A stretch of DNA of 39,811 nt, taken from NCBI GenBank assembly GCA_027011225.1, contig JALVAK010000019.1:1-39811 (forward strand), read 5' to 3'. The notes under the pieces were generated by a model. The model saw nothing but the letters and a program-made list of their open reading frames with translations. It ran no database searches and had not been told where the DNA came from. The stretch comes from Nautiliaceae bacterium. GTDB lineage: Bacteria; Campylobacterota; Campylobacteria; Campylobacterales; Nautiliaceae. Numbering within the stretch: position 1 is the first letter of the stretch; the number at the start of each line of letters is the position of its first letter. Positions 84 to 5,511 of the stretch are shown here, in pieces. A program made the translations under genes and the position numbers.

Positions 84-119
84 CTTAAACTCCTTTTTCT
101 TTTTTTTTGTTGCATTGAA

Positions 120-125
120 ATTATA
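120..125 (-). promoter_or_regulatory. -10 promoter element of the exported-protein gene
   Basis: The minus strand reads TATAAT here, 36 bases upstream of the ATG. There is no TTGACA-like -35 at the usual distance. Instead the upstream DNA holds four phased heptamers, which would suit an activator-dependent promoter. Confidence 0.55.
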
Positions 126-134
126 AAATAAAAG

Positions 135-174
135 TGTAAACAATTTGTTAATACAATATAAATAAAGTGTTAAC
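135..174 (-). promoter_or_regulatory. Four 11-bp-phased heptamers (candidate response-regulator operator)
   Basis: On the plus strand, TGTAAAC (135), TGTTAAT (146), TATAAAT (157) and TGTTAAC (168) start exactly 11 bases apart. The outer two sit in a longer near-identical direct repeat, AAAGTGTwAACAAT (13 of 14 bases). The array ends 9 bases upstream of the TATAAT of the exported-protein gene, where a -35 would be. OmpR/PhoB-family regulators are known to bind direct repeats at 11-bp spacing in this position. The regulator is probably the one encoded by the adjacent gene; that link is inference. The distal repeat overlaps the kinase stop codon. Confidence 0.5.
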
Positions 175-1204
175 AATAATTCTTTAAATCTAAAATAATT
201 GTAGTGCCTTTTTCGTTTGATATTATTTCAATAGGAATTTTTAATTCATCGCATAGCTTTTTTACTATATTCATACCAATTCCAATACCTCTTTCATTTT
301 CTTTATAAAATCTATCAAATACTTTTTTTGGATTTTTTATTCCAATCCCTGTATCTTTTATATAAAGTTTTTTATTTTTAATAAAGATTTTTACATTGCC
401 ATTTTTTTTGTTATATTTAAAAGCATTGCTTATTATATTCTCTATTATTGCATCAAACGCATTTTTATTTATAGTAATTTTGCAATCTGCACTATTTTCA
501 TAAGTAATAGTAGGATATAATGAAGAGTAAAAATGTAATTTTTCATCTATTATACTTTTGATATTAAAAGTTTCTATTTGGTTTGGATTTAGGGATAGAA
601 AATTTTTAAGATTTTCTTGGTATTTTAATATTCTTTTTATATTTTTTTCCATCTCTTCAATTTTTTCTTTATTAGGCGATTTTTTTAAAAGATATAAATT
701 CATTTTAAGGGTTGTAAGAGGTGTGTTTAAATCATGCAAAATATCTTTTATAAATGTTTCATTGAGTTTATAAGCTTCTTTTAAAGGCAATAATAAAATA
801 TACATAAAAACAAAAGTAATAATTAATACAAAAATTACTTCAAAAAGAAAAATTTTTAATATCTTGATTTTTATATCTTTTAATTCTTTTTGGTATATTG
901 TTTTAGAAATAGAGAGTTTTAAGAAGTAATGTTTAAATTGTGGCAAGTTAAAAAGCATATGATAGTTTTTGTCATTTTCATATAAATATAAAACTTTTAA
1001 ATTGTCGTTTTTTTTAACAAAATCAATTTGTATATTTTTGCAATTAAGTTTATATGAGCATATTTCTAAATCTTTTTTTATTTTATCTAGCAAATAATGT
1101 TTTTCTTTTACATATATATTGTAATTTATAGAGCTTATGAGCAAAAATAAAAGCCCAAATATGATAAAAAAACTTAAAGTTAAAAATTTTTTCTCAAATT
1201 TCAA
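170..1204 (-). CDS. Sensor histidine kinase
   Basis: Inner-membrane two-component sensor of 344 residues. Transmembrane segments lie at about 8-27 and 117-139, enclosing a periplasmic sensor of about 90 residues that matches no domain I recognise and holds two cysteines (C49, C55). The cytoplasmic part has the phosphoacceptor H157 in HDLNTPLTTLK, an N-box (N256, N260), the DTGIG G1 box (D284) and GIGIG G2, so it looks catalytically complete. No clear HAMP domain separates TM2 from the H-box. The start overlaps the end of the upstream response regulator by 11 bases, so the two are translationally coupled. A CprS-type sensor, as in Campylobacter, is possible from the arrangement, but the signal is unknown. 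Confidence 0.93.
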   Translation of the reverse strand: MKFEKKFLTLSFFIIFGLLFLLISSINYNIYVKEKHYLLDKIKKDLEICSYKLNCKNIQIDFVKKNDNLKVLYLYENDKNYHMLFNLPQFKHYFLKLSISKTIYQKELKDIKIKILKIFLFEVIFVLIITFVFMYILLLPLKEAYKLNETFIKDILHDLNTPLTTLKMNLYLLKKSPNKEKIEEMEKNIKRILKYQENLKNFLSLNPNQIETFNIKSIIDEKLHFYSSLYPTITYENSADCKITINKNAFDAIIENIISNAFKYNKKNGNVKIFIKNKKLYIKDTGIGIKNPKKVFDRFYKENERGIGIGMNIVKKLCDELKIPIEIISNEKGTTIILDLKNYC

Positions 1205-1820
1205 TTGTATATCCTTCTCCTCTTATATTTTTTATATCAATTCCTAATTTTTGTTTTAGTTTATTGATGTTTACTCTCAAAGATGCATCAGTAGAATCAG
1301 TAATATCTAGTAGTCTTTCTTTTGAGACTATGTTATTTTTATTTGTAATTAGCTCATGGAAAATATCTTTTAATGTTTGGCTTAATGGAATTATTTTTCC
1401 TTCTTTTTTTAAAACTTTATTAATAGGCTCATACTCATAATCTTTAAATTTTATGGTGTTATTATTTTTTTTAATTTTTGCTTTAATTCTTATTAAAAGC
1501 TCTTCTGGCTCAAAAGGTTTTTTAATATAATCTTCGCTTCCTGCTTCAAATGCTTTTGCCATGGTATTTAAATCGGTTAATGCAGTTATAAATATGGTAG
1601 GCGTATTATCGTCTGCGTTTTTAAGGTTTTTTAATACTTCAATTCCGTTTTCATCAGGCAAGTTTATATCAAAAATATATAAATCATATTTATTGTTAAA
1701 TGTTTTCTCATATGCTTCGTTTGCATTATTTGCAATGTCTACTTTGTAGTTTTCAAGCTCTAAAATCTCTTTTAGGGTTTTTGCTAAATCGTAATCATCT
1801 TCTAAAAGCAATATTTTCAT
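1194..1820 (-). CDS. OmpR-family response regulator
   Basis: DNA-binding response regulator of 208 residues. The receiver domain (about 1-110) has the acidic pair D8/D9, phosphoacceptor D51 (YIFDINLP), T79 and K101 before a proline. A short winged-helix trans_reg_C domain follows (about 115-208), ending in the typical IRGEGYTIEI. It is slightly shorter than the usual 220-230 residues. It is the first gene of a regulator-kinase operon reading leftward, with ATG and an AAAGGAAA ribosome site. Its promoter is shared with hisD inside a symmetrical palindrome. Likely targets include the exported-protein gene at the left edge, given the phased repeats there. Confidence 0.94.
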   Translation of the reverse strand: MKILLLEDDYDLAKTLKEILELENYKVDIANNANEAYEKTFNNKYDLYIFDINLPDENGIEVLKNLKNADDNTPTIFITALTDLNTMAKAFEAGSEDYIKKPFEPEELLIRIKAKIKKNNNTIKFKDYEYEPINKVLKKEGKIIPLSQTLKDIFHELITNKNNIVSKERLLDITDSTDASLRVNINKLKQKLGIDIKNIRGEGYTIEI

Positions 1821-3948: not shown

Positions 3949-5511
3949 ATGAAATTATTAATAATATTTTTATCTGTAGTTATGTTTGCTAAAAATATAT
4001 TAATTCTTAATTCTTATTCTGTTCAATTTCCTTGGACTAAAGGTGAGTTAGAGGGAATTTTACAAAACTTTAAACACAAAAAAGATATTAAACTATATAT
4101 AGAATTTATGGATACTAAGCTTTTTGCTCCTACACCTGAGTATATTAATAACTTTTCTAATTATTTAAAAACTAAATACAAAAATTTAAAGTTTGATATA
4201 GTTATTACTACTGATGATAATGCTCTTAGATTTGCTCTTACACATAATAAATTTTTTAAAGATTCTAAAATATTTTTTGCGGGAGTAAATGATTTATGTA
4301 TTGCTAAAATAATTGATAGAAATAGAGTAAGTGGAGTTTTTGAAAAAAAGGAGCCTCTTGCAAATCTTAAATTTTTGAAAAAAGTAGTGCCTGATTTAAA
4401 AAAAGTGTATGTTGTAGCGGATAATTCTAATTCTGCTAATGCTGTTATGAAAGAATATAAAAAAGAGTTAAATAAGGTAAAAAATTTAGAGTTTGTATTT
4501 ATTAATGATGAAAATCTCTCACGAGTTATAAATAAAATTAAAAACTATAAAAACAGCGGTATGCTTCTTTTAACTCCTTTTAGTTTTAAATTAAACTCTC
4601 ATCATATAAATTATAAAAAAGCAATAACACTTATTTCAAATAACTATCCAAAACCAATTGTAATCCATACTGATATTTTAGCATCTTTAGCTAATACTAA
4701 TATAGTAGGGGGAAGAGTTACTGATGCGATATCTCAAGGAAATAGCGTTAGTAAAAAAGTGCTTTTATATTTAAACGGCAAAAAAGTAAAGGATATTCCT
4801 CTTACTTACGAAAAAGCTAATAAAATGTATTTGAATGTTAAAAATTTAAAAAAATTTAATATAGAGCCTGAAAAATTAGGGTATAAAAATGCTGTTTATG
4901 TAAATAAACCCAATGATTATGATAAATACAAAAAATATTTAATGTTTGCATTTCTTGGATTAATCTTTTTAACTCTTTTTGTTATTATGCTTTTGTATAA
5001 AAACTACAAATTAGCACAATATAAAAAAAGTGTTGAGAAGATATCTGAAAAATTAGATAATGATTTAAAAGAAAAATATAAAGATATCTCAAATAATTAC
5101 ACTCATTATTTAGAAATTAAGTTGCAGGCTCTAAGGGATATTATATTAATTATGCTAAGACGTATAAATAAGCTTTATTTAGAAAATGATAATTTTATGA
5201 AAGAATTTATGGTTTTTTATGACTGGGAAAATAATAATCTTTATATTAAAGAATTTTTAAAAAGCTTAGCAACAATATTAAATAAAAATGTTGAAATAAT
5301 AGGAGAAGATTTTGAATTAAATTTGGATAAAATTTTGTTTGCGAAAGTGATGATAGAGCTTTTAGAAGATAATTCTAAGATAATTTTAAAAAATAAAAAG
5401 ATTATTATTAATTATCCGTATAATGTTAATTTTGATTTAAAAAACATTAAAAAAATTTTGGATTTGAATATTGAGCTAAATAAGGATAAATTGGTAATAG
5501 ATTTGGGATAA
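3949..5511 (+). CDS. Periplasmic binding-protein sensor fused to a degenerate histidine-kinase-like domain
   Basis: 520 residues. A signal-like start (1-14) is followed by a periplasmic domain to about residue 325 resembling the ABC_sub_bind family ([46 protein letters not shown]). Then come a transmembrane segment at about 330-350, a charged coiled coil (about 352-383) and a short cytoplasmic end. That end aligns with kinase parts: [15 protein letters not shown] matches the H-box, keeping the His (H386) but with Tyr and Lys where Glu and Pro normally stand. LLEDNSKI resembles an N-box. The DxGxG and GxG boxes are absent and the domain stops early, so ATP-dependent kinase activity is unlikely. 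Role as a ligand-sensing signalling protein is inference. It has its own promoter. Confidence 0.7.

Follow-up and report, generated by a model that had tools for sequence, protein, structure and literature searches.

The window analysed here is a stretch of 39,811 nucleotides at the start of a contig from a Nautiliaceae genome with a GC content of 28%. Its opening genes are all read from the minus strand, in the order response regulator, sensor histidine kinase and, from an ATG at 83-81, an exported-protein ORF referred to below as gene E (Table 1). The 86-bp gap between the co-directional kinase gene and gene E holds a promoter preceded by four heptamers (TGTAAAC, TGTTAAT, TATAAAT and TGTTAAC on the plus strand), which start at 135, 146, 157 and 168 and thus follow one another in steps of exactly 11 bp. 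On the minus (coding) strand this ladder reads GTTAACA-cttt-ATTTATA-ttgt-ATTAACA-aatt-GTTTACA-cttttattt-TATAAT. Nine bases (126-134) separate it from the TATAAT hexamer (minus strand, 125-120), and the distal heptamer GTTAACA contains the kinase stop codon, TAA (172-170).

Re-derivation of the coordinates returned precisely the arrangement of the initial annotation, an 11-bp ladder ending nine bases before a minus-strand TATAAT. The same annotation regarded the ladder as replacing the -35 element, which holds insofar as no -35 box is present but is in itself unremarkable, since σ70 promoters of Campylobacter jejuni normally lack one (PMC3656092, PMC3847290). Its recognition motif, TGTwAAy-N4, describes the AT-rich form found in Nautiliaceae, whereas across the phylum the coding-strand unit is better written RYTAAYA-N4 (TRTTARY on the opposite strand). 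Two units are usual across the phylum and the four of the window represent a long form. Most relatives have the G that marks an extended -10 (TGn; frequency 0.75 in their motif), but the window promoter lacks it.

Table 1. Features at the start of the window.
Feature	Position	Strand	Basis or remark
Start of exported-protein gene (family E), MKLKLSVITLGLLVTGALAQTNIDATQ, truncated by contig end	3..83	-	Full-length relative: L033 4904-5566
AGGAG, likely ribosome-binding site	90..94	-	Sequence
-10 hexamer TATAAT	120..125	-	9 bp downstream of unit 4
Unit 4 GTTTACA, proximal	135..141	-	Near -28 to -22, taking the hexamer as -12 to -7
Unit 3 ATTAACA, distal member of the widely conserved pair	146..152	-	Motif matrix
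Unit 2 ATTTATA, weakest of the four	157..163	-	Window sequence, relatives
Unit 1 GTTAACA, distal	168..174	-	Holds kinase TAA; GTTAAYA in the 3 compared Nautiliaceae relatives
Sensor histidine kinase, 344 aa, small periplasmic domain, HisKA + HATPase_c	170..1204	-	Pfam
OmpR-type response regulator, 208 aa, Response_reg + Trans_reg_C	1194..1820	-	Pfam

The regulator belongs to the OmpR/PhoB family, with PF00072 (1.1e-28) and PF00486 (1.3e-6) both over the gathering score. In the kinase, Cys49 and Cys55 of a periplasmic CSYxLxC segment are invariant in alignments of 13 and of 28 rows; the pair is missing from divergent kinase relatives (for example L072-L074 and L081-L084). The sensor domain was modelled as helix, strands, helix with a pLDDT of 92.6, and its fold found no match in the PDB at E 0.001. 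Further into the window, positions 3949-5511 encode a 520-aa protein with an ABC_sub_bind domain and a membrane helix, whose C-terminal part looks kinase-like.

Members of family E, whose start codons were picked by a simple rule, have a signal peptide, a conserved ERVxLMNxFKxxLxxMN segment and a Met/His-rich tail, with 14.6% Met and His as against about 3% in the regulator, the kinase and the TSP3 proteins. The gene that usually follows E encodes such a TSP3-repeat protein (T), with barrel-like strands, and in the genome of the window it opens a different contig (G000 C28 30-782, L045). The E relative in L033 carries internal NVANTQANAQTNTQ-like repeats, and repeats of this kind may explain the assembly break in the window's E. 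Gene E matched no family in Pfam, and a comparison using all 48 members found no link to DUF1104. Its structure model has a mean pLDDT of 63, a low confidence that makes fold matches meaningless, and a profile of E run against PDB sequences gave short helical matches only, which were taken as chance.

Comparison with related loci ties E, the pair and the ladder together. The 133 loci combined orthologous loci from whole genomes with 80 named records; because some are shared between these collections the locus counts are not independent events, an overlap that is lessened in a non-redundant set of 90 E upstream regions and in counts of distinct sites. E lies beside the pair on the same strand in 96 of the 133 loci, in two gene orders, one of which, E-T-regulator-kinase, occurs in at least 24 loci. 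Across 249 genomes of the phylum, E is present in 27 and a relative of the kinase in 54; all 27 genomes with E have the kinase relative, and E adjoins it in 26. Among 41 relatives, E is confined to genomes having the regulator.

The site itself is conserved as well. The three Nautiliaceae relatives compared retain the four units together with the 9-bp gap, with 20 of 28 positions invariant in the units as against 5 of 12 in the spacers between them. Identical 6-mer pairs in E upstream regions peak at a lag of 11 (74 pairs), followed by 42 at lag 21 and 2-25 at most other lags. A motif search of these regions gave the consensus RCTAACA-cttc-RCTAACA-N9-TATAAT/GATAAT, and two units plus a -10 (RYTAAYA-N4-RYTAAYA-N9-TATAAT) are found in 71 of the 90 non-redundant E upstream regions. 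Over these 71 sites the mean -10 score is positive at a gap of 9 only, and additional upstream units lie at -11 and -22 only, bar two cases at -21. The ladder is thus conserved in the same intergenic region of relatives, a comparison for which the initial annotation had called. The motif is absent from the other 19 upstream regions. In several of these (for example the L073-L084 group) E begins at or inside the end of the kinase gene, and some motif-less E loci carry a site before the regulator gene instead. Genome G037 has no site before gene E, which is far from the pair. At the locus concerned (L197) both the E and TSP3 genes are distant from the pair and box-less, and a lone GCTAACA unit precedes another Met-rich exported gene nearby.

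The motif matrix extends the prediction beyond E. In 1.19 Mb of loci it gave 170 hits of at least 15 bits, compared with 4 for a reversed-matrix control; shifting the unit spacing by 1 bp left 3-4 hits and shifting the gap by 1 left 11-12. As the matrix was trained on E upstream regions, the 92 hits elsewhere form the independent part of this result, and nearly all of them lie immediately upstream of genes. The 154 distinct sites include 63 before E, 24 before the regulator gene and 55 before other genes of the exported/surface class, as assigned by a crude signal-peptide rule. Apart from the regulator gene, the non-E targets encode lipoproteins, DUF1104-like, DUF2202 and DUF4214 proteins and Met-rich exported proteins; five AT-rich sites (L183, L188, L190, L191 and L196), which may be chance, were left out. 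DUF2202 proteins are encoded at or near box-bearing genes in several genomes (L200, L201, L203). A strict pattern run on the 249 phylum genomes found 15 sites in 11 genomes. The E system is present in 10 of these genomes, which together hold 14 of the 15 sites; the remaining site is among the 222 genomes without the system.

The genome of the window has a second site, GTTAACT-N4-GTTTACA-N9-TATAAT (G000 C36 111-143, L210), with one mismatch, which precedes a run of PqqD-like, ATP-grasp and decarboxylase-like genes. A site without mismatch stands before a PqqD-like ORF in the same-genus genome G007 (L172), where the contig end truncates the ORF. L117, which is more distant, has a site ahead of a run of PqqD, ATP-grasp, decarboxylase and urea-transporter-like genes. 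In the 120 bp upstream of the regulator gene of the window, no site of this kind was seen. The sites before the regulator gene in relatives suggest that autoregulation is probably common there, and the order E-T-regulator-kinase would close a positive feedback loop by way of the E promoter. The initial annotation had named the downstream exported gene as the target of the adjacent pair, and this assignment gains support from synteny, from the fixed geometry of the site and from the sites before the regulator's own gene.

The ladder shows the 11-bp direct repeats of an OmpR/PhoB-type box, and to judge from the sequence its proximal unit falls within the -35 region and keeps a constant distance to the -10. 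Several known boxes are built in a related way: the PhoB unit is TGTCA, the DccR box repeats TTCAC every 11 bp across the -35, and the PmrA/BasR box is an 11-bp repeat with a TTAA core. The last looks alike in core and spacing, whereas its regulon and signal give no sign of being shared; of the full-length regulators with a solved structure, BasR is one of the nearest to that of the window. PhoB/OmpR-type direct repeats of 11 bp placed as the initial annotation described have precedents in PhoP (PMC3335776), PhoB (PMC3978041) and PceP (PMC7755780). The Pho box of E. coli consists of two 11-bp direct repeats (PMC3978041), and a sigma contact is predicted, in work cited in PMC3335776, for PhoB at a box overlapping the -35; the ladder has the same repeat spacing and differs in its unit, and the Pho box serves the phosphate regulon. 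The Salmonella PhoP box, (T/G)GTTTA-N5-(T/G)GTTTA, lies 12 nt upstream of the -10, and its phasing to the -10 is essential (PMC3335776). It shares with the present sites a two-unit, head-to-tail 11-bp repeat upstream of the -10 in which phasing matters, and differs in unit sequence, in the Mg2+/peptide/acid sensor of the PhoP system and in an unrelated regulon. The ladder is not a PhoP box, as only the window's proximal unit, tGTTTACA, is similar and the phylum consensus is RCTAACA.

In Sulfurospirillum, organohalide respiration is controlled by PceP (RR2), a member of the OmpR family that uses CTATA units with six-nucleotide gaps over the -35 (PMC7755780). It comes from the same phylum and regulator family and has direct 11-bp repeats over the -35, but its unit is CTATW with a reported functional pair CTATW-N17-CTATW, its targets are others, and its kinase has seven transmembrane helices; CTATW units do not account for the ladder, the core of the motif matrix being TAA. 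DccRS of C. jejuni, the most relevant known system, is likened here by description only: it is OmpR-type and switches on a small number of genes whose products are periplasmic or membrane proteins (PMC9449129). No published description of the box or the regulon was found in the literature searched, which had most subscription journals outside its reach, and neither the motif, nor DUF2202 in connection with response regulators, nor TSP3 in Epsilonproteobacteria led to a relevant paper there.

We propose that the ladder is a binding site of the adjacent OmpR-type regulator, which in its phosphorylated form would activate the E promoter, a reading that the comparative data make highly probable. 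The regulator is the likely ligand because sites precede its own gene and track its presence. We infer that upon an envelope signal the kinase would phosphorylate the regulator, whereupon at least two regulator molecules would bind head-to-tail on the 11-bp repeats and activate rather than repress. The proximal dimer would occupy the usual position of the -35 and recruit RNA polymerase to the -10, switching on E and the following gene for a TSP3-repeat, outer-membrane-type protein. The four-unit form of the window would offer room for two dimers. This box would also govern further genes for exported proteins, and in many relatives that of the regulator itself.

How far the window itself bears this out is limited. 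Pairs of units with up to two mismatches occur at shuffle frequency (13 found, 14.6 expected), so a lone pair proves nothing and the ladder has to be judged together with other genomes; its very AT-rich units, taken without relatives, would be indistinguishable from ordinary promoter periodicity. Looser pattern scans of window and genome gave counts at chance level and were excluded from the statistical evidence. The full geometry (two units and a correctly spaced -10, all without mismatch) occurs solely inside this ladder in the 1.64-Mb genome, so that the scan proposed in the initial annotation turned up no equally good array elsewhere. With a matrix whose training set left out all Nautiliaceae, the ladder is the top-scoring site of the window, at 12.9 bits against 1.7 for the runner-up; since 4 of 100 whole-window shuffles hold a site reaching that score, an array arisen by chance has some footing in the window, yet position, spacing and gene are all conserved in relatives and this explanation is extremely improbable. 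Such conservation is the decisive support for the ladder. Another view is that the units are the A/T periodicity of about 10-11 bp that replaces the -35 in σ70 promoters of the phylum, with no specific regulator involved. In these promoters of C. jejuni, the place of a -35 is taken by periodic A/T and an extended -10, and -35-less promoters are predicted for this bacterial group too (PMC3656092, PMC3847290); the AT-rich units of the window and the unexceptional number of mismatched pairs agree with this. Against it, the units of relatives hold a fixed C and R (RCTAACA) even amid GC-rich DNA (for example L040), the spacing is exact rather than approximate, and the sites are restricted to one gene set and to genomes with this regulator. 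RpoD periodicity thus fails as a whole explanation, and we regard this view as very unlikely.

Another OmpR-type regulator of the same genome could bind the ladder, with the pair linked to E for other reasons: the regulator has 15 matches in this genome, mostly paralogues, OmpR-type boxes look alike, and G037 has E without a site. That 24 distinct sites precede this particular regulator's gene, that strict sites are missing from nearly all genomes without the system and that the kinase accompanies E in every genome with E render this quite unlikely. It is also unlikely that the regulator binds the ladder and represses, blocking polymerase at the -35 until a signal arrives. The units do overlap the region covered by polymerase, and sequence reads alike for repression and activation; repressor sites are not known to need so exact a gap. 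The fixed 9-bp gap and the helical phasing to the -10 fit contact between an activator and polymerase, as for PhoP (PMC3335776).

The cysteine pair of the kinase and the Met/His-rich tail of E make a metal or redox (thiol/oxidant) cue a reasonable guess and a possible signal. More tentatively, the system may constitute an envelope-sensing regulon of Campylobacterota that is new to the literature, in which the CSYxLxC kinase would sense metal or redox state and the RYTAAYA ladder would induce Met/His-rich exported proteins, TSP3-barrel, DUF2202, DUF1104 and DUF4214 proteins and a PqqD/ATP-grasp pathway.

An orphan pair, which at the chosen cutoff is present in roughly one in five of the Campylobacterota genomes sampled, thereby gains a precise predicted box and a predicted list of targets, nearly all of which are exported proteins of unknown function. 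Reading promoters by this box would unite many uncharacterised proteins of vent and sediment bacteria in one response, and would make the inducing signal testable.
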